From the NCBI RefSeq assembly GCF_025370775.1, contig NZ_JAMXEX010000011.1:124001-188000 (forward strand): a stretch of 64,000 nucleotides of DNA. Reading direction: 5' to 3'. Position numbers and translations under genes: made by a program. The notes under the pieces were generated by a model. The model was not told the DNA's origin. It did not search any database and saw only the letters and a list, made by a program, of their open reading frames with translations. Below are positions 21,606 through 39,660 of the stretch, piece by piece (positions within the stretch are counted from its first letter, which is position 1; each line of letters starts with the position of its first letter). This stretch comes from Ancylothrix sp. D3o (lineage in GTDB: Bacteria; Cyanobacteriota; Cyanobacteriia; Cyanobacteriales; Oscillatoriaceae).

Positions 21606-21965
21606 AGGTTATAACAAACTATTTGGCTTTGTCTGAATAAGTAACTAAATCTGCAACTTATCCTAACCATTATCGGGGACGGGTGATTGCTTCGTTGCGA
21701 AGAGGATGCGTTATAAATGGGTCACTTGCTTTTATCAGCATATTTAAAAAATTTTGTCAAGGGTTTTTTGAGGCTTTACTAAAAGTTTTTGATGTGTGTT
21801 TTGGTTGACAATTTATCGGCTTTTTTTCTGGGGATAATGTTTGATGGTCGATGTCTTAAAAAAAATTTATTGTAAAGTTGCGCCTAGGGGAGTGACAATT
21901 CTTTTTTCATCGGCTAAAACTGACATATATTTAATAAAATTTTGGAAAGGTTGAGGGGTCTATCT
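21606..21965. other. Upstream region of the giant gene
   Basis: About 360 AT-rich bp lie between the divergent REC-GAF gene and the giant surface-protein gene. No RNA or small gene is evident. A GAGGGG (21953-21958) just before GTG 21966 is the likely ribosome-binding site of the giant gene. Confidence 0.5.
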
Positions 21966-24900
21966 GTGGATTTTACTGAGAGTGGTTTAGTTTTGTTTCC
22001 CAGTACACCGGCTTCTCTCAATCATTTGCCTGTAGTTCCTCTTGATTTATTGTCTCCTGCTTCGCCGTGTTTACTGCCGGTGGCTGGGGGTGAGACTTCT
22101 CTACAGTTTCCTGAAGTTAACACCGGCTATCTGGTGTCTTCTCCTCCTGGGTTTGATGCTCTGACTGGTTATCCGCTTCAAGAAAATCAGTCGGGGGAGA
22201 TTGTTTTTGTTGATTCGGCGGTCGAAAATTATCAAAGTTTATTGGCTGGGGTTGTTAGCAATGCTGAGGTGGTGATTCTTGATTCCACCGGCAATGAGTT
22301 TAATCAAATTACTGAAATTTTATCCCAACGAGACAATATTTCTGCGGTTCATATTGTTTCTCACGGTAGTGCCGGTTCTTTAAGTTTGGGTGAGAGTTTG
22401 GTAAGTATTGCAGATATTTCGCAAGCTAACTCATGGCAGGGTAGTTTAACTGCTGATGCGGATATCCTTTTATACGGTTGTGATGTGGCTGCGGGGGATG
22501 CAGGGAAAGAGTTTGTAAAAGAGTTGAGTGATTTAACCGGCGCTGATGTAGCGGCTTCGACAGATAAAACTGGTTTTGGCGGAAATTGGGATTTTGAGTA
22601 TAAAACCGGCAATATTGAGACGGGGTTAGTGTTTAGTGAGCCGGTGATCAATGCTTATCAAAATACTTTGGCTACGTTTAATATTGCGGATGGGGATGTT
22701 GCCGGTTTAATTGCTGCAATTGCAGCGGCAAATACGAATAATCAAGCAGATACGATTAATTTAGCACAGGGTGGAACATATACTTTAGCGGCGGCGAATA
22801 ATGGGGTTAATGGTTTGCCGGTGATTAGCTTAGATAGCTTTAATCTCACTAATACTTTAACAATTAATGGAAATGGGGCAACAATTCAAAGAAGTACGGC
22901 TGCCGGTACTCCAAATTTTCGCTTTTTTCAAAATAATGCAGTTTTATCCTTAGCAGGTTTAACTTTAAGAAATGGGAATCCTGCTAATGCTGGAGGTGCA
23001 ATTTTAAATAATGGGTTCGCTTTAACGATTACCAATAGTTCTTTAATAAGTAATACGGGAACCACTGGAGGTGCAGTTTCTATCACTAGTGGTGTGGTGG
23101 TGGAAATTATTAACTCTACTTTTTCAGGAAATAGCGCAACAACAGCAAGCGGTGGGGCTATTAACGTTGGGAACGGAACTGTTAATCTGACGAATACAAC
23201 GATTACTCAAAACACGGCAGCAACGGGTGGAGGAATTAATCGCGCTGCTGGCAGTGTGAGTGTTCAAAATAGTATTATTGCCGGAAATACAGCAACGACA
23301 AATGCTGATGTTTCTGGAACTTTTGTGAGTGGAAATAATTTAATTGGCGATATCACTGGCAGCATCGGCTTTGCAGCCGAGGATGTTTTAAATGTTCCTT
23401 TAAACACCGTTATTAGCCCAATTTTAACCACAACCAACCCCACATTACCGGCGGCTTATCAAAGTTTAATTCCCAGTGTACCGCCTACACCTTACCACGC
23501 ATTAATTACAACAAATCCAACAACAAACCCGGCAATTGATCTGGGGGCATTTCCTGCTGGTGATCTGACGGAACAATTAACCCAAATTGATCAAAGAGGT
23601 TTACCTAGAATTTTCAGAAATTATGATATTGGGGCGGTGGAAAGTGAAATTGACCGCTTAAATGATGCGCCGGTTGTGGTTTTGCCGAGTGGAACGTACA
23701 GTTTATTTAATGGGTTTGGTTTACCGGGTGCCGGTGGGCAAGGTTTTAATTATTTGGGTTTATCGAGTGTTCCTACAACGGGGGTAGATGCAACACAAAC
23801 AGCACTACCCGGTTTTACGAATTTGAATACAACCCTAGAGTATGATGATTATGCCGGCTATTTTAGTAACCCTGTTTATATGCCGGTTTTGGATAGAACG
23901 GCGGGATATACAGTAGAATTTACTGCTAGAATTAATAGCGAAGATCATGCTGGGCTAAATGCGGATAAAAACGGGGATGGGATTGCAGATAGAGCCGGTT
24001 TTAGTTTGATTGCCCTCAGTAGTGATAAGCTGGGAGTTGAGTTAGGATTTTGGACAGATAGTATTTGGGCACAGAATAGCGGTACGGCGGAACCACCAGG
24101 GGGAACGTTATTTACACGGGGGGAAGCTTCGAGTTTAACTGCGGCACAAATTACCAGTTTTACCTCCCAATTAAGCAATTATAAATTAACAATTCAAGGC
24201 AATACTTATACTCTTTCTGCCAGCAATGCAACGAATGCTGAGACGGTAATTTTAACCGGCAATGTTAAAGATTATAGCAATTTTACAGGTATTGCTAATC
24301 CGCTGATTCCAAGTCAATATTCGTCTTTATTGAATCCTTATAATACGCCTAATTTCCTATTTTTTGGAGATAATACTCCTACTTCGCGGGCGAATTTTGA
24401 TTTAGGGCAAGTGCAAGTTACTACGATAAAGCCGGTGATAACAAATGAAGATACGGCGGCGGTTATTCCTGATGTTTCTGTGCGAGATATTGATGCAGGG
24501 CAAAATAATATTACCGTAACTTTGAGTGTGACAAATGGAACCTTAGCTGTTAATTCAGCGGTGACAAATGGTTTGACAGCGGCGGCAATTTCTGGTAATA
24601 ATTCCGCAACAGTTACACTCACCGGCAGCCAAGATCAAATTTCTACGACACTTTCTAATGCGACGGGTTTAACTTATCTGCCGGCTTTGAATTTTAATGG
24701 CACGGATACGTTGACGGTATTGGCAAATGATGGTGGGTTTAGTGTGGGAGGAAGTGTTTCTCAAACAGCTACACGAAATATTCCTATTACAGTTAATGCG
24801 GTGAATGATGCACCGGCACTTTCTCTTCCTACTACCCAAACGGTTAATCAAAATACGAATTTAAGCATTTCTGGAATTAGTATTTCTGATGTAGATGCCG

Positions 24901-27900
24901 GTGCTTCTAACACTATTTCGGCTTGGATACAAGCTCCTAATGGGGTACTTAGTTTAGCTTCAACAACGGGTTTATCTTTTATAAGTGGTGATGGTACGCA
25001 AGACGAAATTATGGTTTTTATGGGTACCCTTGCTGATATTAACAATGCTTTAAATGGACTCGTCTATAGGGGTAATTCTAATTTCTTTGGTTCTGATATA
25101 ATCGAGTTTGAAATAGACGATACGGGAAATACGGGTGCAGGAGGTAATTTATTAGCTGTAGCTGGAATTCCAGTTATAGTGAATGGTATCAGCGCTGGTG
25201 CGCGCTCTGTGTTAATTAATGAAGTGGTGACAAGCCCTCAGCAAGACTGGAGTACCACTAATTTTAACGGCATTGTGAGTGCCGGTGCGGTAACAAACGG
25301 AACTGATGAATGGGTAGAACTTTATATTAACCAAGCAGGGTTAAATTTAACCGGCTGGACGATAGAACTTAATGATGCCTCGCCTGTAGTCGGAAGTCTG
25401 GCGACGGGGGGTGCTTTTGTTACATCACGTTACATTAATAGCGGTGGGGGAAGTTTTAGCAATACGGCGGTGGGAGATTATTTGGTTTTAGGAAATGTCA
25501 ATAATGCCGGTGCAATGAATAATGCTATTACGCTGGTTTTGAAAGACCACACGGGCACTATTATTGATCAAGTTACTCTGACAACTGGTGCCACAGGGGT
25601 AATAGATGAGGCGGTTGCTCGCGTACCAAATGGCAACGATACTAATAATGATACAACAGATTTGAGGCCGCAAGCTGCAACTTTAGGAACCAGCAATAAT
25701 ATCGGACAATTGGTATTAGGTGTACATCCCGTTGGACAAGTTACAGATCAATTTACCACAACTCAAACCAGTAACGTTTTACATCGGTTTAATTTAACCG
25801 CCAGCAACGAAAATATCAATGTCGGTTCTTTAAATTTTACAGTTTCACCAACGGGTATTTTAAATACTGATATCTCAGGTTTGCAGTTAGTGCGTGATGT
25901 CAATAATAATGGCATTCAAGATATCGGTGATGTGGTTGTCGGGACGGTGGAAAGTCCGGTTAATCTTGCGGATGGGTTGACTTTTGCTAATCTGACGGTG
26001 CCGGTGGGAAGCAATAATTATTTATTGCTGGCAAATGTCAATAATTTAGCAGCCGGAGATCGGTTGAGTTTAGGTTTGGCAAATACGGGAATTATTAATA
26101 ACGTTGGGGCGACTTCTGGGTTCCAAATTGCCGACACCGGCACCGTTACTTCTACGGTTCATACCGTTGACATCGCAGCGCTTTCTGTGGTAATAAACGA
26201 AGTTGCATGGATGGGAACTCAGGCAAATGCAACGGATGAATGGATCGAACTTTTTAACCCTACTTCTAATGCAATAGATTTAACCGGCTGGACAATTCCA
26301 AGCGGAACCGGCACAACAATTACTATTACAAATGGAGTGATTGCGGCGGGGGGATATTTCCTTTTAGAAAGGACATCTGATGCGACTGTTAATAGTCTAC
26401 CGGCTAATTTTGTTTACACCGGCGGACTTAATAATACCACCGGCACGTCTTTAACTTTACGTTCCAGTGAAGGGACAATTATTGATAGCGCTAATGCGGA
26501 TGGTGGAGTATGGCCGGCGGGTAGCAATACAGCCGCAACTGCACGTTTTACAATGGAAAGAATCGATCCGACTTCCCCAGATATTGATAGTAACTGGCGA
26601 ACTAATAACGGAATTATCCGCAATGGCACGGATGCTTTAGGTAATAATATTTTGGGAACTCCAAGCGCTCAAAATTCTGTTTACGCGACTCCGGGGGTAG
26701 TTATTACGGAGTCGGGGGGAAGTACGGTTTTAACGGAAGGTGGGGCAACGGATAGTTATACGGTGGTTTTGAGAACGCCTGTCACAGCGCCGGTAACAGT
26801 AAATTTAACAAATGTTGGCGGACAAACTACGACAACAGCGGGAAGTTTAACTTTTGATAATACAAATTGGAATGTCGCACAAACGGTGACGGTGACGGCG
26901 GTAAATGATCCGACAGCAGAAGGTACGCACACCGGCACAATTCAACATTCTATTACCAGTACAGATTCTCGGTATAATATAGCGGTGGTGCCGGTAAATG
27001 CGAGTATTACAGATAATGATTCTAATCCACCGGTGATTTCTTTAGCTTCGGCAAGTTTGAGTTATACGGAAAATAGCGGTGTGGTGGTTGTAGATAGCGG
27101 CGCGAGTGTTTCTGACTCAGACTCGGCTGATTTTAATGGTGGTGTTTTGACGGTACAATTTTCTGGGGCGACGGGTTTAGGGGAAGATAGTTTATCTATT
27201 CAAAATGTGGGAAATGGTGCCGGTCAAATTGGCGTAGCAGGAAGTACGATTAGTTATGGTGGGGTGGCTATTGGTACGTTTAGCGGGGGGAATAATGGCT
27301 CAACTCCTTTGGTGGTTAATTTGAATGCAATTGCTAATATAACTGCGGTTTCAGCATTGTTGAAAAATATCGTTTATTTGAATAATTCCGAAAATCCGTC
27401 GGCGACACCTCGCACGGTAGAATTTCAAATGACGGATGGTGATAATGGGGTTGGGTTGCCGGTGAGTAAGACGATAAATGTTGTGCCGGTGAATGATGCA
27501 CCAACTATTTCAGCTATTACAGCGCAAAGCACAAATGAAGATACAGCAACCGCAGCGATTAGTTTTACGATAGGAGATGTGGAAACGCTGCCAGACTCGT
27601 TAATTTTATCGGCGACTTCTTCAAATACAAGTCTTATCCCAAATAGTAATATCGTTTTTGGTGGCACCGGCAATAACCGCACAGTCAGTTTAACCCCGGC
27701 AGCGAATCAAAATGGCACGGCAACGATTACGATTAATGTCAGTGATGGTACGACTGTCACGAGTACGAATTTTGTTTTAACGGTAAATGCTGTAAATGAT
27801 GCGCCGGTGGCTGTTGAGGATGCTTACAGCGTAGATGAAGATAAAACACTGATTATACCGGCATCTGGTTTACTGGTAAATGATACCGATGTGGAGAATA

Positions 27901-30900
27901 GCCCGCTGACACCAATTGTAGTAACCGGCCCTTCTAATGGTAGTGTGGTATTAAATGCGGATGGTTCGTTTGCGTACACGCCGGCGGCCAATTATACCGG
28001 AGTAGACAGTTTTACATATCAAGTCAGTGACGGTACAGCAGTTTCTAATCCGGTGCCGGTGAGTTTACAAGTTAATGCTGTCAATGATGCACCAACTATT
28101 TCAGCTATTACAGCGCAAAGCACAAATGAAGATACAGCAACCGCAGCGATTAGTTTTACGATAGGAGATATTGAAACGCTGCCAGACTCGTTAATTTTAA
28201 CGGCGACTTCTTCGGATACAAGTCTTATCCCAAATAGTAATATCGTTTTTGGTGGCACCGGCAATAACCGCACAGTCAGTTTAACCCCGGCAGCGAATCA
28301 AAATGGTACGGCAACGATTACGATTAATGTCAGTGATGGTACGACTGTCACGAGTACGAATTTTGTTTTAACGGTAAATGCTGTAAATGATGCGCCGGTG
28401 GCTGTTGAGGATGCTTACAGCGTAGATGAAGATGAAACACTGATTATACCGGCATCTGGTTTACTGGTAAATGATACCGATGTGGAGAATAGCCCGCTGA
28501 CACCAATTGTAGTAACCGGCCCTTCTAATGGTAGTGTGGTATTAAATGCGGATGGTTCGTTTGCGTACACGCCGGCGGCCAATTATACCGGAGTAGACAG
28601 TTTTACATATCAAGTCAGTGACGGTACAGCAGTTTCTAATCCGGTGCCGGTGAGTTTACAAGTTAATGCTGTCAATGATGCACCAACTATTTCAGCTATT
28701 ACAGCGCAAAGCACAAATGAAGATACAGCAACCGCAGCGATTAGTTTTACGATAGGAGATGTGGAAACGCTGCCAGACTCGTTAATTTTAACGGCGACTT
28801 CTTCGGATACAAGTCTTATCCCAAATAGTAATATCGTTTTTGGTGGCACCGGCAATAACCGCACAGTCAGTTTAACCCCGGCAGCGAATCAAAATGGTAC
28901 GGCAACGATTACGATTAATGTCAGTGATGGTACGACTGTCACGAGTACGAATTTTGTTTTAACGGTAAATGCTGTAAATGATGCGCCGGTTTTCTCCTCA
29001 ACTCCCATCACCACCGGCAACCAAAACTCAGCCTACAGTTACAATATTGTTACGTCAGACGTAGATGCCGGTGAGACTCTGCTTATTTCAGCAAACGGTT
29101 TACCGGCTTGGTTGACTTTAACTGATAACGGTGATGGTACCGCCACTCTTACCGGCACTCCCACCAATGCCAATGTCGGCAATAATAATATAGAGTTGGA
29201 AGTCACCGACGCGACGGGTGCAACTGCAACTCAAAACTTTACCCTCAACATAACCAACCTCAACAACCCTCCCACCTTTACCAGTCTACCCCCCAACACC
29301 GCCACAGAAAATCAACTTTATCTCTATAACATCCAAACCACCGACTTAGACGGCAACGCTGTCACCCTTTCTGCCGTAAACTTACCCGCATGGTTAACCT
29401 TAACCGATAACGGCGATGGCACCGGCACCCTCAGTGGCACACCAAACCAAACCCAAACCGGCACATATAATATATTGTTGCAAGTCAACGACGGCATTAC
29501 CCAAACGCAACAAACCTTCACCCTCAACAGCGACATCGTAAACGATACCCCCACTCTTGTCACCAATAACAGTTTTTCCGTCAACGAAAACGCAACCAAA
29601 ACCATAACTTCCGCAGACTTAAATACAACAGACAGCGATAACTCCCCCGCTGATATCGTCTACACGGTTACTCAACTTCCCCAAAATGGAGTTATCTACA
29701 AAAACAGCATTGCCCTTTCCCTCGGCGCCACCTTCACTCAAGCCGATATCAACTCCGCTGCCATAACCTACACCCACAACGGCAGCGAAACTACAGCAGA
29801 CTCCGTTAGCTTCACCGTTTCCGACGGCACAAACTCTGCCATCCCTGCAAATTTTGCCATAACTGTCTCAGCCGCAAATGATGTGCCGGTGTTGTCTGTG
29901 AATACCGGCTTAACTTTGCCTGAAAACAGTTCTGTCGCTATTACCACATCTGTGCTTAAAAGTCAAGACTCAGAACAAAGTTTCTCAGAATTGATTTACA
30001 CCCTCACCAGCTTACCCGCCACCGGCACTCTCAGCCGTAACGGTATCCCCCTCAACCTTGGCGACGCTTTCACCCAAGCGGATATCGATCAAAACTTAAT
30101 CGCCTATAGCCACAACGGTAGTAAGGTTACGGCGGATAGCTTTAATTTTACCCTCGGTGATGGGGCCGGTGGTTCGGTGAGCGGCAATTTCCGTCTCACC
30201 ATTAACCCTATCTCTGAAACCCCCACACCTACACCCGAACCGGCACCCACACCTACACCCGAACCGGCACCCATTCCCACACCTACACCCGAACCCATCC
30301 CCACACCGGCACCCGAACCGGCACCCATTCCCACACCTACACCCGAACCCATCCCCACACCGGCACACGAACCCATCCCCACGCCGACACCGGCACCCAT
30401 TCCCACACCTACACCCGAACCCATTCCCACACCTACACCCGAACCCGTAGGGGGATTTGGCGAAAACCCAATCCCAGCCGAGACTCCACAACCCATCCCC
30501 ACCCCCGCATTGCCACCAAGCCAGCAACCGGCCTATAGCTTCAAAAACTTTTTCCAATATATTGCCGGTGACAGAAGCGCCTTTATAAACCTAATTTTTG
30601 ACGAAAAATATTACCTAGAAAATAACCGCGATATTGCCGAAGCCGTCGCCAAAGGGCAACTAAAATCAGGCTTCCAACACTTCCTAAAATTCGGACAATA
30701 TGAAGGAAGAAACCCAAGTGTGCTATTCAACGAACAAGAATATCTTGATGGCAACCCCGATGTAGCAGAAGCCATCAAAAAAGGAGCATTCAAGAGTGGG
30801 ATAGAACATTTTATTAAACACGGCTTTTTTGAAGAAAGAGATTTACGCTACCTAATATTTGACGAAGAATATTATCGCAATACCAACACCGATGTAGAAA

Positions 30901-31688
30901 AAGCCATCAAAGAAGGAATCTTTAAAACCGGCTTTGAGCACTTTATTAAATTTGGACAATATGAATGGCGAAACCCAAGTTTGCTATTTAATCAAAGCGA
31001 ATATGTTGCCCAAAACCCAGACGCAGCATCAGACATAGCCGCCGGCATCTATAAAAGTGCCTTTGAGCAATTTATGAAAATTGGGTTAAAACAAGGCAAA
31101 AATCCTTCAAGTTTATTTGACAGCCAAATTTACTTAAAAGAAAATCCAGAAGTGGTAAAAGGGATAGAAGCCGGTGTTTATCAATCGGCGTTTGAGCATT
31201 ACTTAAAGACAGGAATTTCTCAAAAGCAAAAAGGAGAAAATATTGAAGAAGTCACTCCTAAAAATTTGTTGGAATATATCACAACAGCCGGGAGAGGAGC
31301 TTTAGCATTATTTTATGATGAAAAAACCTACCTCGAACAAAACCCAGAAGCCAAAAAAGCCTTAGCAGAAGGAACTGTAAAAAACGGCCTCGAACACTTC
31401 TTAAAATTTGCTGCAACTCGTCCACAAAACTTAATTAGTTTGTGTTATAATGAGCAGCAATATTTAGGAGATAATCCCGATGTAGCAGATGCCGTTGCCA
31501 AAGGTGCGTATATTAGCGGGTTAGAACACTATCTACAATTTGGAATTTTTGAAGGGCGAGATCAGGAATTTTTAACCTTTGATGAAGTTGGCTATTTGCA
31601 AAAAAATCCAGAGATAGAACAAGCCGTTAAAAAAGGAATATACAGCAGCGGTTTTGAACACTTCAAACGCCAAGAAAAACGCTCATAG
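21966..31688 (+). CDS. Giant multidomain surface/adhesin-like protein with DUF4347
   Basis: A ~3240-residue protein. GTG 21966 is chosen for its GAGGGG site 8 nt upstream; the frame opens at TTG 21942 and no ATG lies near. Domains in order: DUF4347 (about 76-226, with IVSHGSAGSL and ILLYGCDVAAG); a right-handed beta-helix with many Asn/Thr/Gly repeats (240-560); cadherin-like repeats (from about 820); two lamin-tail-like domains (about 1082 and 1408, INEVAWMG and DEWIELFN); a Calx-beta-like segment (1577-1690); 591-bp repeat units of cadherin-like NDAPT/NDAPV modules (1842-2342); two putative-Ig modules (2342-2530); two CSPG/cadherin-like repeats (2530-2750); a Pro/Thr/Glu linker (2751-2860); and eight ~40-residue C-terminal repeats (from 2871) around YLxxNPDVAxAVxxG. 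No cleavable signal peptide is visible. Extracellular adhesion or motility-sheath function is inference. Confidence 0.9.
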   Translation: MDFTESGLVLFPSTPASLNHLPVVPLDLLSPASPCLLPVAGGETSLQFPEVNTGYLVSSPPGFDALTGYPLQENQSGEIVFVDSAVENYQSLLAGVVSNAEVVILDSTGNEFNQITEILSQRDNISAVHIVSHGSAGSLSLGESLVSIADISQANSWQGSLTADADILLYGCDVAAGDAGKEFVKELSDLTGADVAASTDKTGFGGNWDFEYKTGNIETGLVFSEPVINAYQNTLATFNIADGDVAGLIAAIAAANTNNQADTINLAQGGTYTLAAANNGVNGLPVISLDSFNLTNTLTINGNGATIQRSTAAGTPNFRFFQNNAVLSLAGLTLRNGNPANAGGAILNNGFALTITNSSLISNTGTTGGAVSITSGVVVEIINSTFSGNSATTASGGAINVGNGTVNLTNTTITQNTAATGGGINRAAGSVSVQNSIIAGNTATTNADVSGTFVSGNNLIGDITGSIGFAAEDVLNVPLNTVISPILTTTNPTLPAAYQSLIPSVPPTPYHALITTNPTTNPAIDLGAFPAGDLTEQLTQIDQRGLPRIFRNYDIGAVESEIDRLNDAPVVVLPSGTYSLFNGFGLPGAGGQGFNYLGLSSVPTTGVDATQTALPGFTNLNTTLEYDDYAGYFSNPVYMPVLDRTAGYTVEFTARINSEDHAGLNADKNGDGIADRAGFSLIALSSDKLGVELGFWTDSIWAQNSGTAEPPGGTLFTRGEASSLTAAQITSFTSQLSNYKLTIQGNTYTLSASNATNAETVILTGNVKDYSNFTGIANPLIPSQYSSLLNPYNTPNFLFFGDNTPTSRANFDLGQVQVTTIKPVITNEDTAAVIPDVSVRDIDAGQNNITVTLSVTNGTLAVNSAVTNGLTAAAISGNNSATVTLTGSQDQISTTLSNATGLTYLPALNFNGTDTLTVLANDGGFSVGGSVSQTATRNIPITVNAVNDAPALSLPTTQTVNQNTNLSISGISISDVDAGASNTISAWIQAPNGVLSLASTTGLSFISGDGTQDEIMVFMGTLADINNALNGLVYRGNSNFFGSDIIEFEIDDTGNTGAGGNLLAVAGIPVIVNGISAGARSVLINEVVTSPQQDWSTTNFNGIVSAGAVTNGTDEWVELYINQAGLNLTGWTIELNDASPVVGSLATGGAFVTSRYINSGGGSFSNTAVGDYLVLGNVNNAGAMNNAITLVLKDHTGTIIDQVTLTTGATGVIDEAVARVPNGNDTNNDTTDLRPQAATLGTSNNIGQLVLGVHPVGQVTDQFTTTQTSNVLHRFNLTASNENINVGSLNFTVSPTGILNTDISGLQLVRDVNNNGIQDIGDVVVGTVESPVNLADGLTFANLTVPVGSNNYLLLANVNNLAAGDRLSLGLANTGIINNVGATSGFQIADTGTVTSTVHTVDIAALSVVINEVAWMGTQANATDEWIELFNPTSNAIDLTGWTIPSGTGTTITITNGVIAAGGYFLLERTSDATVNSLPANFVYTGGLNNTTGTSLTLRSSEGTIIDSANADGGVWPAGSNTAATARFTMERIDPTSPDIDSNWRTNNGIIRNGTDALGNNILGTPSAQNSVYATPGVVITESGGSTVLTEGGATDSYTVVLRTPVTAPVTVNLTNVGGQTTTTAGSLTFDNTNWNVAQTVTVTAVNDPTAEGTHTGTIQHSITSTDSRYNIAVVPVNASITDNDSNPPVISLASASLSYTENSGVVVVDSGASVSDSDSADFNGGVLTVQFSGATGLGEDSLSIQNVGNGAGQIGVAGSTISYGGVAIGTFSGGNNGSTPLVVNLNAIANITAVSALLKNIVYLNNSENPSATPRTVEFQMTDGDNGVGLPVSKTINVVPVNDAPTISAITAQSTNEDTATAAISFTIGDVETLPDSLILSATSSNTSLIPNSNIVFGGTGNNRTVSLTPAANQNGTATITINVSDGTTVTSTNFVLTVNAVNDAPVAVEDAYSVDEDKTLIIPASGLLVNDTDVENSPLTPIVVTGPSNGSVVLNADGSFAYTPAANYTGVDSFTYQVSDGTAVSNPVPVSLQVNAVNDAPTISAITAQSTNEDTATAAISFTIGDIETLPDSLILTATSSDTSLIPNSNIVFGGTGNNRTVSLTPAANQNGTATITINVSDGTTVTSTNFVLTVNAVNDAPVAVEDAYSVDEDETLIIPASGLLVNDTDVENSPLTPIVVTGPSNGSVVLNADGSFAYTPAANYTGVDSFTYQVSDGTAVSNPVPVSLQVNAVNDAPTISAITAQSTNEDTATAAISFTIGDVETLPDSLILTATSSDTSLIPNSNIVFGGTGNNRTVSLTPAANQNGTATITINVSDGTTVTSTNFVLTVNAVNDAPVFSSTPITTGNQNSAYSYNIVTSDVDAGETLLISANGLPAWLTLTDNGDGTATLTGTPTNANVGNNNIELEVTDATGATATQNFTLNITNLNNPPTFTSLPPNTATENQLYLYNIQTTDLDGNAVTLSAVNLPAWLTLTDNGDGTGTLSGTPNQTQTGTYNILLQVNDGITQTQQTFTLNSDIVNDTPTLVTNNSFSVNENATKTITSADLNTTDSDNSPADIVYTVTQLPQNGVIYKNSIALSLGATFTQADINSAAITYTHNGSETTADSVSFTVSDGTNSAIPANFAITVSAANDVPVLSVNTGLTLPENSSVAITTSVLKSQDSEQSFSELIYTLTSLPATGTLSRNGIPLNLGDAFTQADIDQNLIAYSHNGSKVTADSFNFTLGDGAGGSVSGNFRLTINPISETPTPTPEPAPTPTPEPAPIPTPTPEPIPTPAPEPAPIPTPTPEPIPTPAHEPIPTPTPAPIPTPTPEPIPTPTPEPVGGFGENPIPAETPQPIPTPALPPSQQPAYSFKNFFQYIAGDRSAFINLIFDEKYYLENNRDIAEAVAKGQLKSGFQHFLKFGQYEGRNPSVLFNEQEYLDGNPDVAEAIKKGAFKSGIEHFIKHGFFEERDLRYLIFDEEYYRNTNTDVEKAIKEGIFKTGFEHFIKFGQYEWRNPSLLFNQSEYVAQNPDAASDIAAGIYKSAFEQFMKIGLKQGKNPSSLFDSQIYLKENPEVVKGIEAGVYQSAFEHYLKTGISQKQKGENIEEVTPKNLLEYITTAGRGALALFYDEKTYLEQNPEAKKALAEGTVKNGLEHFLKFAATRPQNLISLCYNEQQYLGDNPDVADAVAKGAYISGLEHYLQFGIFEGRDQEFLTFDEVGYLQKNPEIEQAVKKGIYSSGFEHFKRQEKRS
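27490..28989. repeat. Near-identical 591-bp tandem repeats in the giant gene
   Basis: Units begin at about 27490, 28081 and 28672, the last partial (~318 bp). Copies differ at only a few bases (for example GATGTGGAAACG against GATATTGAAACG, and GATAAAACA against GATGAAACA). Each unit encodes two cadherin-like modules starting NDAPTISAITAQ and NDAPVAVEDAYS. Confidence 0.95.
30214..30450. repeat. Short tandem repeats coding the Pro/Thr/Glu linker
   Basis: Degenerate repeats of ACACCTACACCCGAACC and CCGGCACCCATTCCC encode a PTPTPEPAP-type linker between the adhesive modules and the C-terminal repeats of the giant protein. Repeat number probably varies between strains. Confidence 0.9.
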
Positions 31689-31830: not shown

Positions 31831-32331
31831 TTAAGAAGTGCCGGTACTCGAAGCCAACCCTACCAATTTATCAAGATTGAGATAAAAAACAACTGATTCC
31901 GAAACATGAATTAAACGATCAACGACAGTAGAAAGTTGACCTTGCCGGTATAACTCTGGAACCTCAGAAAATTGCTCTGGAGAGACTTCTAAAATAGCCG
32001 GCATATCAGGAATAGGAATCCCCACCGGCACAGAATTATTCAAAGAACAAACAATCAAAAAATTACAATCAGAGAAATGGCAAGTGTTAGAAAGCAAAGT
32101 GGAAACATCAAAAACCACAATCGTGTCATTTTGCTCTTTTACCAAACTGCGACCGCTGATTAAAACGCCTTGGGGTATAAACTCTTTAACAACACGCAAC
32201 ACCCGCAAAAGCGGAATAGCATAACGCTCATTACCGGCATTAAAAACTAAAAATTTCTCCGTAGTAATTCGGGGTAATTCCTCATGCTTTGTGCGAAACC
32301 GGCGACTGTATTTAAAGCTATTCATTGCCAT
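31831..32331 (-). CDS. CheW-like protein (second CheW of the cluster)
   Basis: A 166-residue protein with one CheW-like SH3-type domain (about 25-160: EKFLVFNAGNERYAIPLLRV ... IVVFDVSTLL). CheW couples receptors to the CheA kinase. It is divergent from the CheW at 37536-38045 and has a basic N-terminal extension of ~25 residues. It is the last gene of the five-gene chemotaxis-type group, 78 bp after the CheA gene. Its position after CheA suggests an extra adaptor; this is inference. Confidence 0.83.
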   Translation of the reverse strand: MAMNSFKYSRRFRTKHEELPRITTEKFLVFNAGNERYAIPLLRVLRVVKEFIPQGVLISGRSLVKEQNDTIVVFDVSTLLSNTCHFSDCNFLIVCSLNNSVPVGIPIPDMPAILEVSPEQFSEVPELYRQGQLSTVVDRLIHVSESVVFYLNLDKLVGLASSTGTS

Positions 32332-32409: not shown

Positions 32410-35157
32410 TCAATGCTTTTTCCCTAAAATATTGCCAATCACATCCAACAATTGCCTTTCACTATAGGGCTTAGTAAAATAATAACAAGCGCCCAACTCA
32501 AAAGCAAGCTGCCGGTGTTTAGATCCGCTGCGAGAAGTCAACATAGCCACAGGAATAGGAGTCAGAGTCGGATCAGACTTCATCTGACGCAACAATTCAA
32601 AACCATCCATTCGAGGCATTTCAATATCAGCAATAACCAACCGACATTGAGGATTTCCGTGTAGTAAATCGAGGGCTTCTTGACCATCTTTTGCTTGAAT
32701 AACTCGATAACCAGACCGATTCAAAGTCAGAGCCAACAATTGACGAATTGTATAAGAATCATCCACCACCAAAATTTGAGTAGGAGAAGTAACAGGAACC
32801 TCAGAAACTTCTAAAGGATGAGAAGGAGGAAAGCTCTTTTGAGCCTTATTATTTAGGCCAGAAAAAACCACACTATTTTGACGTTGAAACTGACCAATCA
32901 AATCATCAACATCTAAAATCATTACCACACGACCATCACCCAAAATTGTACAACCGACAACACCATGAGGCTTAGAAAGAGGGGCCGGTAAAGGTTTGAT
33001 CACAATTTCCTGCTGTCCTACCAAGCGCTCAACCGCCACCGCCAAGATGCCCTCACTTGATGCCAAAACCACCACCGGAATATAATCTTGCTCCACCGGA
33101 TCAGGCGAAGGGCCATCGGGATGTGCTATACTATAGTGAGTCAACTCCTGCAAACGCATCAAACGGATAAACTCGCCCCGCCACCGCAACATCAACTGAT
33201 TACCCGCCCGGAGAATTTGGTGAGGTTGGAGGTGCAAAATCTCTTCCACCGAATCCATAGCCACCGCCACCGTATTGCGATCCGTATGAACCAACAGCGC
33301 ATCAGCTATCGACAACATCAAAGGTAACTTAAGTATAAAACTTGTACCCTTACCGGGCCGGGAATCGACCTTGACCATGCCGCGAACACCGCGTAAATTG
33401 TTACGAACCACATCCAAACCCACCCCGCGTCCCGACAACTCCCCGACGTGCGAAGCAGTAGTAAAACCAGCCCAAAATAAAAACTCGTATAACTCCGCCG
33501 TTGAAAGGGTAGATACCTGATCCAGCGGCACCAATTGGGCCTCAATCACACGCCGGCGGATCGCCTCAGGGTCAATTCCCCGGCCATCATCTGTGACCGT
33601 AATAATCGTTTGTCCGCCTTGGTGACGCGCCTCAACTTCAATCTGGCCGGTGGCCGGTTTACCGGCTGCTATCCGAACTGCCGGCGGTTCAATACCATGA
33701 TCAAAAGCATTTCTCACTAAATGTACAAGCGGATCGCGCACTGCATCCAGCAAACTTTCATCTATCTTAGTATCACGTCCAGATATTACTAACTTTACTT
33801 CCTTATTGTGAGATTGACACAAATTTCGGACAGAGCGGGGCAAATGATCCACCGCACGACCAAAAGGAACCACCCGCAACTGCATAACCCGCGAGCGTAA
33901 CTGATCCGTAATGCGGCGTAAACGGTCAGTGCTGCTCTCAAAAAGCTTTGCGAGGTCATCAATTTTGGTAGCCGATTGGGAAATGGCCTGAGTAGTTTCG
34001 ATTACTTCTTGCGCCGTTGAGTGAAACTCTGTATAAGTATCCATTTCCAAACAATCGAACTGAGACAAAACTAGAGACACCGGCTTTTTTATGCCTTCCC
34101 CAGCCAGCCGGTCGTATTCTTCGCGCAATTGAGAGCCATATTGATTTAAATCTAAAATCCGGCGGCGAATTCGCTTAACTTCTGTGCGTAATTGCGACTC
34201 TTGTAACTCCAAATTCGTGCGATTAATAACCAACTCTCCAACCAAATTAATTAACTCCGTCAGCCTTTCCAAATCCACGCGAATTGTGGGACGATTAGAA
34301 ATAGGTAAGGGGGGATTAGGTAAAGGAGGCTGAGGGAGAGTTACAGAGTCCACATCGACAAAAGAAACCGGGATAGGTAGCAAATCAATATCAGGAACCT
34401 GAATAGCTTTTCCCAAACAAACTTGCTCCGCAGCATCTTGCAAATTCTTAGTAATTTTCAAACCGGAAACTTTTAACTCATCTGACGTTAAGTTAGGTTG
34501 GTTTACTAGGTTTTGCAAGCAATTAGCAATTACCCCAAACTGGGGTAAATTTAACATTCCAGCAATACCAGAAAGGCGATAATGAATTTCTTTTATAACT
34601 TCAATAGCTTTATCTAAATTTTGCGAATCAACTGTATTTAACTCCCCTTCCAACTTATCTAAAACTGGCGGTAAATCTTTCTCAAAAATTAACTTAATAA
34701 TCCCAAAGTTTGGCAGAGCAGCCACCGGCACCACTTCCTCTGTTTCATACTCAGCGCGGAGTTGAGCCTTAATTTCAGCAATCCGAACCAAAGAGGCATG
34801 ATCCTCAAACCGCCCCTCCTTTTCCAAACGCTCCACATAAATTTTCAATACATCCGTAGCTTGTAAAAGAGAAGTAATTATCTCTTGATTCAAACCCCAT
34901 AAATCAGCCCCATCCCCCACAATAGAAAAACAATCCTCCAACCCATGAGCCGCATCAGCCAACTGTTGGAAACCAAACATCAAAGCCGAACCCTTAAGCG
35001 AATGAGCCAAACGAAACAACTCTTTTACCAACTCCAAACGCCCATCGTCAGAAGCATCAAACTCAAGAGCCAAAAGATTCGCCTCAATTGATTGCAGAAA
35101 TTCCTTAGTTTCTGCGAAAAAACTCCCTAACAAATCATTATAATTATTTTGATTCAT
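32410..35157 (-). CDS. CheA-type hybrid histidine kinase with C-terminal receiver
   Basis: A 915-residue kinase of the chemotaxis class (PixL/HmpE/PilL-like). The N-terminal Hpt domain has His52 in LAHSLKGSA. A second Hpt-like segment (about 150-225) has His192 in IHYRLSGIAG, where the usual Lys after His is changed. The dimerisation and ATPase parts follow, with N-box LVHLVRNAFDHGIEPP and G-box GRGVGLDVV. Then come a CheW-like domain (about 630-765) and a receiver with phospho-acceptor Asp844 (IADIEMPRMDG). It lies between the MCP and the second CheW gene on the same strand. By family knowledge such clusters control type IV pilus motility, phototaxis or hormogonium behaviour in cyanobacteria. 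Confidence 0.93.
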   Translation of the reverse strand: MNQNNYNDLLGSFFAETKEFLQSIEANLLALEFDASDDGRLELVKELFRLAHSLKGSALMFGFQQLADAAHGLEDCFSIVGDGADLWGLNQEIITSLLQATDVLKIYVERLEKEGRFEDHASLVRIAEIKAQLRAEYETEEVVPVAALPNFGIIKLIFEKDLPPVLDKLEGELNTVDSQNLDKAIEVIKEIHYRLSGIAGMLNLPQFGVIANCLQNLVNQPNLTSDELKVSGLKITKNLQDAAEQVCLGKAIQVPDIDLLPIPVSFVDVDSVTLPQPPLPNPPLPISNRPTIRVDLERLTELINLVGELVINRTNLELQESQLRTEVKRIRRRILDLNQYGSQLREEYDRLAGEGIKKPVSLVLSQFDCLEMDTYTEFHSTAQEVIETTQAISQSATKIDDLAKLFESSTDRLRRITDQLRSRVMQLRVVPFGRAVDHLPRSVRNLCQSHNKEVKLVISGRDTKIDESLLDAVRDPLVHLVRNAFDHGIEPPAVRIAAGKPATGQIEVEARHQGGQTIITVTDDGRGIDPEAIRRRVIEAQLVPLDQVSTLSTAELYEFLFWAGFTTASHVGELSGRGVGLDVVRNNLRGVRGMVKVDSRPGKGTSFILKLPLMLSIADALLVHTDRNTVAVAMDSVEEILHLQPHQILRAGNQLMLRWRGEFIRLMRLQELTHYSIAHPDGPSPDPVEQDYIPVVVLASSEGILAVAVERLVGQQEIVIKPLPAPLSKPHGVVGCTILGDGRVVMILDVDDLIGQFQRQNSVVFSGLNNKAQKSFPPSHPLEVSEVPVTSPTQILVVDDSYTIRQLLALTLNRSGYRVIQAKDGQEALDLLHGNPQCRLVIADIEMPRMDGFELLRQMKSDPTLTPIPVAMLTSRSGSKHRQLAFELGACYYFTKPYSERQLLDVIGNILGKKH

Positions 35158-35252: not shown

Positions 35253-37481
35253 TCAAGTCCTAAAATTTTCCACCGATCTTTGCAACTCACTCACACTTGC
35301 AGCCAACCCATTCAAAGAAGCCGAAACATCGCGGCCTTTTTGAGCCGTAGTTATAGAAATTTCACTTACTTGTTGGACGCGATGAGCAATATCTTCCGCC
35401 GCCAAAACTTGAGCTTGAGCCGCACGATTAATCGTATTAATAAACACATTACTTTGCCGGCTCACCTCAATAATAGCAATCAAATGAGTTTTGGCTTCTG
35501 CCGCAAGCTGAGTGCCGGTAACAACTTCTTGAATTCCCGACTCCATCGCTTGCATAACCCGTTCTATTTCGCTGCGAATTTGCTCAACAATCTCCGAAAT
35601 TTCTTCCGTTGCTTCTGTGGAACGTTCCGCCAATTTTCGCACTTCTTCAGCCACCACAGCAAACCCCAAACCTTGCTCACCGGCTCTTGCAGCTTCAATT
35701 GTTGCATTCAGCGCCAGCAAGTTAGTTTGCGAGGCAATTTTAGAAATAGAAGTGACAATTTTACCAATTTGTTGCGAACTTTCACCCAAGCGTTTAATCA
35801 TCTTGCCGGTTTGGGAAATAGTTTGTCGAAGTTCATTAATTCCCTCCACCGTGCGATCAACAGCCACACCTCCCGCCTGAGCCGTAAGAGCCGCTTGTTG
35901 AGCCACTTGTTCCGCTTGTTGAGAAATATGGCAAACCTCTTTAATAGAGCTAACAATGCCCTCAATTTGCTCTAATGCCAGTTCAATTTGTTGGGCTTGA
36001 TTTTGGGCTTGTGTCGCTAATTCATTTGTGTTTCTCATTGATTCACGAGTGCCGGTTCTCACTTCCAGCGCCACTGTTTGAATACCCGTAACAACTTGGC
36101 GCAAAGAATCCAACAAAAAGTTAAAAGATTCCGCAACCGCCACTAAAATATCATTACTCACCGCCGCTCTTACCCGCAAATCACCTTTGGCGGCGCCTTT
36201 AATATCATTTAACAGTTTAATTACCTGCTCTGTCAGAGCATCAGCCTCCATTTTACGCTCAGTTGCCAGAGTTTCCAGTTGCTTTTCTGCTTGTTTTCTT
36301 TCGGTAATATCAAAGCGAATACTGATATATTTAGCAATATTGCCGGCGGCATCAAAAATGGGAGCAATCGTTGAATCTACCCAGTAATAACCACCATTTT
36401 TGTTTCTGTTTTTAATCTCCGCTTTCCAAACCCTTCCGCTAGAAATCGTTGCCCACATTTCTTGAAAAAAGGCTTTAGAGTGATAGCCAGAATTAATCAG
36501 ACGGTGGTTTTGGCCGATTAATTCTTCGCGGCTATAACCGGAAATTTGGCAAAAACTATCATTGACAAAGGTAATCGTTCCTCTTAAATCAGTTTCGCTG
36601 ACAATAGCGGCTCGATCAAGGGCTTTCTGGCGGTTATTTAATTCTTTCAACAAACGCTCTTGTTCGCGGGTTAGTTGCGTAAAACGTTCTTCGGTTTGTT
36701 TATTATTTGTAATGTCGTGAGCCACTGCATAAATCAATTGTTGATCACCAAAATATTTTGCAGCCCACGCCAGCCAGCGATATTCGCCATCTTTGCACCG
36801 ATAGCGGTTTTCAAAATAAACACTATTACCATTTTGAGGTAGTCTTTGTATTTCGCTGGCGGTGAATTTTTGGTCATCTGGATGCACCATATCCAGCAAA
36901 TATTTTCCTTCTAATTCTTGAGGATTATAGCCCAGTTTATTTGCCCAAGCAGGGTTTAGCCGGTTGAATTTACCGTTAACATCTGCAATGCACAGCAAGT
37001 CCAACGAAAGCATAAAAAATCTGTCTTTTTCGCTTTCTACTTGGTGCCGGTAAGCCTCCATTTCGGTTTTTAATTGGTTTTTTTGTTCTTCAACTTCGGC
37101 TGGGGTTAATATAGTCAAGGCTTTGGGAAGAAAACCTATTAAAAATAAGCCCAATACCCCCATAACACCGGCATTCGCAGCTTTGAATATCCCCGCCCAA
37201 AAATAACTACCACTCGCACCGGCTTTGTTGGTTATAATATTCCAAAACGCCCAACTTTCTGTTAAATGAGCAATTGCACTCGTCAAAACGAAAGCCCCTA
37301 CTAACCACAAAAGTCGGTTAAATCTTAACTGTAATCGCTGCTTGATAAAGTATAAAAAAACTAAAAAAATTATTCCTTCCAAAGCACCAGAAATTAACAG
37401 AGATAAGCCATGAATTAAGGCTAAATTGCCATTCACAAATTCCCCAACAAATTTTGATGAAACCTCGGTTGTTTCCAGCAT
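35253..37481 (-). CDS. Methyl-accepting chemotaxis protein with PAS domains and ETR1-like membrane sensor
   Basis: A 742-residue receptor. The N-terminus has three hydrophobic segments (about 21-46, 55-80, 95-122) resembling the ethylene-receptor sensor: the GAF.L...HL...W pattern (residues 62-77) and a P..L....E motif after helix 3 (119-129). Of the copper ligands known in ETR1, His is kept (His72) but the Cys position appears to be Ser68. Two PAS domains follow (about 155-275 and 290-405, the second with the WVDSTIAPIFD region). The methyl-accepting signalling domain from about 430 has the hairpin tip IASQTNLLALNATIEAARAG. There is no clear HAMP. It lies between the CheW and CheA genes. Confidence 0.93.
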   Translation of the reverse strand: MLETTEVSSKFVGEFVNGNLALIHGLSLLISGALEGIIFLVFLYFIKQRLQLRFNRLLWLVGAFVLTSAIAHLTESWAFWNIITNKAGASGSYFWAGIFKAANAGVMGVLGLFLIGFLPKALTILTPAEVEEQKNQLKTEMEAYRHQVESEKDRFFMLSLDLLCIADVNGKFNRLNPAWANKLGYNPQELEGKYLLDMVHPDDQKFTASEIQRLPQNGNSVYFENRYRCKDGEYRWLAWAAKYFGDQQLIYAVAHDITNNKQTEERFTQLTREQERLLKELNNRQKALDRAAIVSETDLRGTITFVNDSFCQISGYSREELIGQNHRLINSGYHSKAFFQEMWATISSGRVWKAEIKNRNKNGGYYWVDSTIAPIFDAAGNIAKYISIRFDITERKQAEKQLETLATERKMEADALTEQVIKLLNDIKGAAKGDLRVRAAVSNDILVAVAESFNFLLDSLRQVVTGIQTVALEVRTGTRESMRNTNELATQAQNQAQQIELALEQIEGIVSSIKEVCHISQQAEQVAQQAALTAQAGGVAVDRTVEGINELRQTISQTGKMIKRLGESSQQIGKIVTSISKIASQTNLLALNATIEAARAGEQGLGFAVVAEEVRKLAERSTEATEEISEIVEQIRSEIERVMQAMESGIQEVVTGTQLAAEAKTHLIAIIEVSRQSNVFINTINRAAQAQVLAAEDIAHRVQQVSEISITTAQKGRDVSASLNGLAASVSELQRSVENFRT

Positions 37482-37535: not shown

Positions 37536-38045
37536 TTACCATCGTTCCGATTTAGTGATAGCTTCCACATCTAAAATCATCAATAATCGGCCCTCACAAT
37601 CATACAAACCTTTCAATAAAGGAGCCAATTCTTCGCTTACTTCAACCGCCGAAACAATATGATCGGGATTCAGAGACAAAACGCCCTCCACCCCAGCCAC
37701 CGCCAATCCCATACGAATCATGTCGGAGGGCTGCTCAAAATTAGAAGATTCTAAGACTAAAATCCGACTTTGAGGGTGCTGAATATCCGCCGATTCCGCA
37801 TCAATAAACCGGCCAAAATCTCCCACCGCTAAAATTTCCCCCCGCAAATTAGTCAACCCCAACAAAAAAGGCAAAGTATTCGGCACCGGCGATATCGGTT
37901 GTTCGCTCGCGCCAAGCACTTCTCGAACGCAAATTAATTCTACAGCAAACAAACTCCCCCCCTGACCAAAAAGCAAAAATTGCCGAGTCACACTAGGCAG
38001 GTTCTCGCCATCATTTGTACCCATTAGCGGTATTGATATAGCCAT
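37536..38045 (-). CDS. CheW chemotaxis adaptor
   Basis: A 169-residue protein that is essentially one CheW domain (FLLFGQGGSLFAVELICVRE ... PFLLGLTNLRGEILAVGDFG ... EGRLLMILDVEAI). It is expected to bridge the MCP (54 bp downstream) and the CheA hybrid. It corresponds in position to PixI/HmpC of cyanobacterial pilus-chemotaxis clusters; the exact orthology is not decided here. Confidence 0.93.
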   Translation of the reverse strand: MAISIPLMGTNDGENLPSVTRQFLLFGQGGSLFAVELICVREVLGASEQPISPVPNTLPFLLGLTNLRGEILAVGDFGRFIDAESADIQHPQSRILVLESSNFEQPSDMIRMGLAVAGVEGVLSLNPDHIVSAVEVSEELAPLLKGLYDCEGRLLMILDVEAITKSERW

Positions 38046-38269: not shown

Positions 38270-38686
38270 TTACACTTTAGGAGCCTTATCAGAAGCCGCC
38301 GACGACTGGGTAAACTTTTTGATAACCTGACGTAAAGTATCAGCATCAAAAGGTTTCGTTAAATATTCCGTCGCCCCCGCCAACCGGCCCTGAACCTTAT
38401 CAAAAGTTCCATCTCGCGCCGTTAACATAATAATCGGCAACTTTTGAAACTGAGGCAAATTGCGAATCGTACGACATAACTCTAACCCATCAATTCCCGG
38501 CATTGTAATATCCAGCAATAAAAGAGAAACCGGTTGATGATAAATCAAAGACAAAGCATCCACAGCATTATCCGCCAATAAAACCCTATACTCGGTTTCT
38601 AAAGCGCGTTTGACCAAATTTTGAGTCACAGCACTATCATCCACCGCCATAATTGTTGGCACTGTTTGATAACTTTCAGATGTCAT
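38270..38686 (-). CDS. CheY-like single-domain response regulator
   Basis: A 138-residue receiver: acidic pair in IMAVDDSAV, phospho-acceptor Asp59 in LLLLDITMPGIDG, conserved Thr in IIMLTARDG, and Lys in YLTKPFD. There is no output domain, as in CheY/PixH. It is the promoter-proximal member of the chemotaxis-type group, with a 224-bp gap to CheW, so it may have a separate transcript end. A PatA/PixG-type partner is not present in the window. Confidence 0.93.
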   Translation of the reverse strand: MTSESYQTVPTIMAVDDSAVTQNLVKRALETEYRVLLADNAVDALSLIYHQPVSLLLLDITMPGIDGLELCRTIRNLPQFQKLPIIMLTARDGTFDKVQGRLAGATEYLTKPFDADTLRQVIKKFTQSSAASDKAPKV

Positions 38687-39588: not shown

Positions 39589-39660
39589 TGGGGTGTCGCC
39601 AAGTGGTAAGGCAGCTGGTTTTGGTCCAGCCATTCCGAGGTTCGAATCCTTGCACCCCAG
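39589..39660 (+). tRNA. tRNA-Gln (anticodon UUG)
   Basis: A 72-nt cloverleaf. The acceptor stem is TGGGGTG/CACCCCA with discriminator G. The anticodon stem GCTGG/CCAGC encloses loop TTTTGGT, giving TTG at positions 34-36. The T arm carries GGTTCGAATCC. The CCA end is not encoded (the next bases are TTAAAA). Confidence 0.96.

Follow-up and report, generated by a model that had tools for sequence, protein, structure and literature searches.

Tyr32 is required in copper-dependent ethylene receptors, and AtETR1 is a kinase. Residue numbers for Tyr32, Ile35, Pro36 and Ile62 are given in what we take to be ETR1 numbering. The essential copper site has been placed at Asp25, Cys65 and His69 (PMC12643061). 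Ethylene binding is lost in AtETR1 mutants of C65 or D25 as well as in a SynEtr1 mutant of the matching Cys, and D25 has been modelled as positioning H69 and touching K91 (PMC11819568). A wide range of output domains has been described for ethylene-binding proteins, with MCPs unnamed in the portion of that source used here (PMC7700396). UirS/SynEtr1 is noted to have an ethylene-binding domain and no MCP-like domain (PMC5812497). PMC6944256, which names both subjects, concerns histidine kinases in the part available. No MCP with an ethylene-binding domain was recognised in the literature consulted, which comprised these sources, PMC13012798, and the available portions of PMC9603746, PMC12288463, and PMC6682694; a prior mention elsewhere is quite possible.

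The window (the whole 64,000-nucleotide stretch of Ancylothrix sp. D3o DNA that was analysed) encodes an MCP chemoreceptor on its minus strand, with a purine-rich AAGGAAAGG immediately 5' of the ATG start codon. An initial annotation had described this gene as a chemoreceptor with two PAS domains and an ethylene-receptor-like membrane domain at 37118-37481; these coordinates were correct and hold the codons for residues 1-121, and Pfam likewise recovered the two PAS domains, C-terminal to the membrane domain, together with MCPsignal. The receptor and its domains are as follows:

35253..37481, minus strand: MCP chemoreceptor, 742 aa, with degenerate ETR1_N, PAS, PAS, and MCP signalling domain (ORF and Pfam)
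37113..37430, minus strand: degenerate ethylene-binding-type three-helix membrane domain, residues 18-123 (ETR1_N, hhalign, AlphaFold2)
36672..36986, minus strand: PAS domain 1, about residues 166-270 (Pfam PAS_3, best stretch 175-246)
36276..36608, minus strand: PAS domain 2, residues 292-402 (PAS_9 292-394; sensory_box 292-402)
35358..35909, minus strand: MCP signalling domain, residues 525-708 (Pfam MCPsignal, E 3.5e-39)

When the first 137 residues were used as the query, Pfam ETR1_N (PF25487) matched residues 37-123 at 43.5 bits (cut-off 27, E 3.8e-11) and was the sole Pfam family at E ≤ 1, so that the profile search proposed by the initial annotation came out in favour of its assignment; NCBIfam returned no family for these residues. 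With the whole MCP as the query, the ETR1_N match scored 38.9 bits (E 1e-9). The membrane domain was also aligned with 57 canonical domains by hhalign (probability 98.2, E 2.4e-13, 112 columns). Given these two results, the resemblance to the ethylene-receptor sensor is one of homology, as had been proposed, and the window MCP carries a domain that is truly related to the membrane domain of plant ethylene receptors, though strongly altered.

A MASE family, the competing placement named in the initial annotation, was rejected for the membrane region because no Pfam or NCBIfam MASE profile matched there; the best stretch of an NCBIfam MASE3_PAS_HK match (129-275) lies behind the membrane domain.

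AlphaFold2 modelled the membrane domain (pLDDT 79.9, from an alignment of five sequences) with the three N-terminal transmembrane helices that characterise ETR1_N, at residues 18-48, 55-83, and 89-122, followed by a fourth helix (127-149) that leads into PAS1. Comparable helices (24-54, 61-85, 88-119, and 124-149; pLDDT 71.4) were predicted for the canonical domain of locus L135, which is Oscillatoria sp. PCC 10802 (NZ_KB235948.1). In the hhalign alignment, a 9-residue insert separates helices 2 and 3 of the window domain. Searches of solved structures gave no credible homologue for either the window domain (best E 0.099, a pilin) or the L135 domain (best E 0.9), and a Foldseek search of the window-domain model against the PDB returned nothing at E ≤ 0.001.

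The residues of the copper and ethylene site were read from the sequence and from profile alignments:

37398..37400, minus strand: Leu28 codon, at the ETR1 Asp25 position (copper site) in the profile register (profile alignments; helix 1 contains no Asp)
37377..37379, minus strand: Glu35 codon, at the ETR1 Tyr32 position in the profile register (profile alignments)
37278..37280, minus strand: Ser68 codon, at the position of the ETR1 copper ligand Cys65 (sequence and profile alignment)
37266..37268, minus strand: His72 codon, at the position of the ETR1 copper ligand His69, kept (sequence and profile alignment)
37182..37184, minus strand: Lys100 codon, at the ETR1 Lys91 position, kept (profile alignment)

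The segment GAFVLTSAIAHLTESW places Ser at 68 and His at 72, in agreement with the copper-Cys and copper-His positions first assigned to them. Profile alignments further set Phe39 at ETR1 Pro36 and a conserved Ile38 at Ile35. The membrane domain contains no Cys, the earliest Cys of the MCP being residue 164. A second register was considered for helix 1, where BLAST sets a 3-residue gap; the Asp of Asp25 and the Tyr of Tyr32 are missing in both the profile and the BLAST register, and which residue stands opposite them, Glu35 included, is register-dependent. The initial annotation was thus right that the copper Cys is missing (Cys65 to Ser68) but understated the loss, which extends to Asp25 (Leu28) and Tyr32 (Glu35).

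From the set of Asp25, Cys65, His69, and K91, the window domain retains the His and the Lys alone. Since two of the three reported Cu(I) ligands are absent, copper-based ethylene binding in the known manner is unlikely, as is a role of this domain as an ethylene or copper sensor. Residual binding of Cu(I) and ethylene through His72 with other ligands would be in keeping with the retained His69 equivalent; we consider it very improbable given that two of three reported ligands and Tyr32 are lost, that the domain offers no Cys, and that mutation of the Cys or the Asp abolishes binding in AtETR1 (PMC11819568).

The receptor gene sits in a cheY-cheW-mcp-cheA-cheW cluster, all on the minus strand, and its MCPsignal domain together with the linked cheA, cheW, and cheY genes identifies it as an MCP chemoreceptor. 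The other genes of the cluster are:

38270..38686, minus strand: CheY-like single receiver (Pfam Response_reg, E 1.5e-26)
37536..38045, minus strand: CheW (Pfam CheW, E 5.9e-24)
32410..35157, minus strand: CheA with Hpt, dimerisation, HATPase, CheW, and receiver domains (Pfam)
31831..32331, minus strand: second CheW (Pfam CheW, 31.7 bits, cut-off 23.5)

A tRNA-Gln (ttg) gene lies just past the chemotaxis cluster (39589-39660, plus strand). A frame of 3248 aa at 21942-31688 (plus strand) contains numerous repeated segments along with Pro-Thr-Glu stretches; judged by eye, it looks like a large surface or adhesin-like protein.

Matches over the PAS-MCP part at E ≤ 1e-100 were found in 10 of 40 genomes, the window's own included. 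The best match in each of the genomes G001 and G004, the latter apparently the same organism as L135, has a canonical membrane domain, in which Cys, His, Asp, and Tyr are all present, and belongs to a cluster of the same kind, ordered cheW, second MCP, canonical-domain MCP, broken MCP remnant, and cheA. PAS-MCP identity to the window was 425/598 (71%) for the G001 MCP and 428/598 (72%) for the G004 MCP. Other N-termini occur at this MCP locus: genomes G002, G005, G007, and G038 have an unclassified multi-helix stretch, for which no Pfam family exceeded the cut-off in the two that were scanned, and Microcoleus-type genomes have a three-helix domain with the motif CAFGHSGH.

In the second MCP of the Oscillatoria-type clusters (L135 1036-4848 and L029 8983-12786), the N-terminal membrane stretch contains TGAVSHLCH or TGAVSNICH, and no Pfam family was found over it. 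The broken remnant, between the canonical-domain MCP and cheA, was located at about 4339-4961 in L029 and about 4346-4552 in L030.

As these clusters contain further MCPs, including the remnant, hidden paralogy is conceivable. Over every stretch compared, the window was closer to the canonical-domain MCP than to the remnant, with identities in L029 of 71/78, 29/31, and 64/94 versus 61/78, 27/31, and 61/94, respectively, and in L030 of 66/69 versus 54/69.

The window, L029, and L135 formed a clade (SH-aLRT 99) when a tree was built from 31 MCP signalling regions, and the end branch of the window was 0.25. In a tree of 147 membrane domains, the window domain had an end branch of 3.44 changes per column versus a median of 0.19; the rows nearest to it by path were kinase domains of its own family, and the free search did not place it beside the Oscillatoria MCP domains. 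An approximately unbiased (AU) test on 36 of the 147 rows (16 chosen plus 20 random C/H/D/Y rows) did not reject grouping of the window with L029/L030 (p 0.631), the tree held to this grouping being 3.00 log units better. To control for the rate of change, the four canonical domains found in the window's own genome were compared with a hand-picked set of G001/G004 domains and showed 84, 74, 68, and 65% identity to their best matches, which are not proven orthologues, versus 33% for the window domain. The signalling clade, the long membrane-domain branch, the speed control, and the remnant being less window-like are together read as fast change in place of the membrane domain.

By BLAST score and by pairwise identity (at most 40%), the window domain came closest to domains of other families, and for this reason replacement by recombination has to be weighed, i.e., arrival of the membrane domain from another, already degenerate ethylene-type domain. 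Such an exchange would fit the variation of N-termini between genera at this locus, and neither BLAST nor identity puts the Oscillatoria MCP domains closest to the window domain. We nevertheless rate it as improbable: both other MCPs of the signalling clade carry ETR1_N, the AU test on 36 rows left common descent standing, and a search of 386 genomes of the phylum (E ≤ 1e-11) turned up no degenerate domain that could represent a donor. At that threshold, the window domain had matches in 3 of the 386 genomes, and at E ≤ 1e-12 in 2 of 60 (own genome included in both counts); no close homologue was among them, all matches outside the window being canonical domains. Scans of genome contigs with the window domain and of viral contigs with the Oscillatoria domain found nothing.

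The reading we favour, with somewhat better than even confidence, is that of an ethylene-type chemoreceptor whose sensor has turned into a three-helix membrane module, with input mainly via the PAS domains. The ancestor would have been a chemoreceptor with an ethylene-type sensor, of the kind that related Oscillatoria still have in their corresponding chemotaxis cluster. In the window lineage, very fast change of the membrane domain would then have removed the Cu(I)/ethylene site (the Asp25, Tyr32, and Cys65 equivalents) while sparing the fold of three helices, the equivalents of His and Lys, and the helix that runs into the PAS domains. The membrane domain would now most likely serve as an anchor, dimer, and coupling module, the stimulus would enter mainly via the PAS domains, and the signal would pass from CheW to CheA-REC to CheY and presumably to the steering of motility.

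The very long branch of the membrane domain might also be expected of a receptor that is losing its function altogether. Such decay appears highly doubtful given the intact 742-aa frame, the intact che cluster, and a PAS-MCP part of 71% identity, whose branch measures just 0.25.

Input via the PAS domains was considered from the resemblance of PAS2 to PAS domains of aerotaxis and redox sensors. The PAS domains of Aer/NifL-type structures bind FAD. Against solved structures, PAS2 matched 3ewk ('Sensor protein'; presumably the FAD sensor MmoS) at E 9.2e-53, Aer (8dik) at E 1.1e-25, and NifL (2gj3) at E 1.6e-16, and thus is like solved Aer/NifL-like PAS domains in sequence. The simplest model would have FAD in PAS2 with a redox or energy input.

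What counts against the membrane-module reading is that the kept frame, fold, and His/Lys equivalents exceed the needs of a mere anchor. In addition, helix 1 holds the charged Glu35, which is unfavourable inside a membrane and may point to a new polar function. The domain could then be a repurposed sensor that responds to another ligand or ion, protons, or voltage via a polar cluster of Glu35, Ser68, His72, and Lys100. The retained fold with its His and Lys equivalents, the Glu that has appeared in place of Tyr32 (in the profile register), and the 9-residue insert between helices 2 and 3 would all be consistent with this.

The frequency of such domains was gauged in a census. ETR1_N was found at E ≤ 1e-5 in 48 of 60 genomes (own included), and the window's own genome has five such domains over the cut-off, the other four scoring 143-154 bits versus 43.6 for the window. 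The census comprised 147 distinct domains, taken from the matches listed in the 60 genomes (own included), G243, and a few named loci, and left out fragments with fewer than 85 residues aligned as well as any sequence contained within another. Among these matches, at least four domains are borne by MCPs (the window, L029, L030, and L077), a lower bound given that the architecture of 36 of the 147 was unassigned by motif rules and that some frames were cut; three cut frames were re-read whole, and no MCP domain was found in them. The combination of an MCP with an ethylene-type domain, suspected from the outset to be unusual, is accordingly uncommon but not unique.

The Cys is lost in 17 of the 147 domains, among the matches listed (8 Gly, 5 Ser, 2 Trp, 1 Tyr, and 1 Leu), the His still being present in 14 of them; a quick tree required at least 12 changes of Cys state. 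By these two measures, loss of the Cys with retention of the His recurs, a point in favour of a repurposed sensor. Only the window has unlike residues at all of Asp25, Tyr32, and Cys65 among the 147 domains from the matches listed; L086 has Glu, Phe, and Leu there, and the two nearest MCPs carry Cys, not Ser, at the position of Ser68. A repurposed sensor is weakened by being one sequence, with no close homologue found in which conservation of Glu35, His72, and Lys100 could be seen. These three residues could be leftovers in a domain that retains about one third of its residues, and the mutual facing of Glu35, Ser68, His72, and Lys100 is a supposition. We therefore regard this explanation as unlikely, though worth weighing, and keep the loss of the sensor role as the preferred one.

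A second, remote type of membrane domain was found on MCPs of Microcoleus, Tychonema, and kin (L137 2267-2662 and 19 further loci), characterised by the motif CAFGHSGH. Weak ETR1_N matches were obtained in 19 of 20 distinct members (best E 0.00066; 18.9 and 16.9 bits in two members, under the cut-off of 27), and no family besides ETR1_N matched more than 4 of the 20. Cys69, His73, Tyr36, and Asn29 are invariant in the 20 members, so that Cys-x3-His is kept. When a profile of this domain was run against 5204 ORFs, a set rich in ethylene-type domains, the eight best outside matches were ethylene-type domains; the reverse search gave at best 13.7 bits (E 0.014) versus 8.6 for a reversed-sequence control. 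An hhalign comparison of this domain with ETR1_N showed no significant link. To judge from these profile matches and residues, the CAFGHSGH domain is probably remote ethylene-type kin that keeps the copper Cys and His.

A wider proposal, which we put forward tentatively and hold to be rather doubtful, is that ethylene-type sensors occur on chemoreceptors of filamentous cyanobacteria and that in the window lineage the sensor has been rebuilt around Glu35, Ser68, His72, and Lys100 for a non-ethylene stimulus. If true, sensor domains wired directly to the chemotaxis kinase would offer a possible route to ethylene chemotaxis, canonical in Oscillatoria PCC 10802 and present in Microcoleus and Tychonema as a probable remote form that retains the Cys and His.

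Among known systems, the Aer-type aerotaxis receptors share with the window MCP an Aer-like PAS domain followed by an MCP signalling domain; to our knowledge, they have no ethylene-type membrane domain. AtETR1, SynEtr1 (slr1212), and AzoEtr1 share its N-terminal three-helix domain of the ethylene-binding kind, but they keep the seven residues required for binding, several of which the window has lost, and they are kinases or two-component-type receptors, whereas the window protein ends in an MCP domain (PMC6682694, PMC11819568, and PMC5812497, in the portions used). The 881-aa MCP of G044 (L077) likewise has ETR1_N on an MCP, with Gly in place of the copper Cys and the His kept; it differs in keeping Asp25 and Tyr32, in belonging to another family of the same order, and in its distant signalling region. 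The closest counterpart is the canonical-domain MCP of Oscillatoria sp. PCC 10802 (L135 5027-8728, with MCPsignal in a single 1234-aa frame) and of G001, which shares the matching che cluster and the N-terminal ETR1_N. Unlike the window, the Oscillatoria sp. PCC 10802 protein keeps Cys, His, Asp, and Tyr, scores 145.4 versus 43.5 bits for ETR1_N, and has extra PAS domains. The bacterial ethylene receptors SynEtr1 and AzoEtr1 are of two-component type in the portions of the sources used. Because a close relative's chemoreceptor carries a canonical ethylene-type domain, movement directed by ethylene can be tested directly in Oscillatoria sp. PCC 10802. Beside that receptor, the window protein offers a naturally occurring variant that has lost the site, useful as a negative control produced by evolution and as an example of how a gas sensor may be turned to another use.
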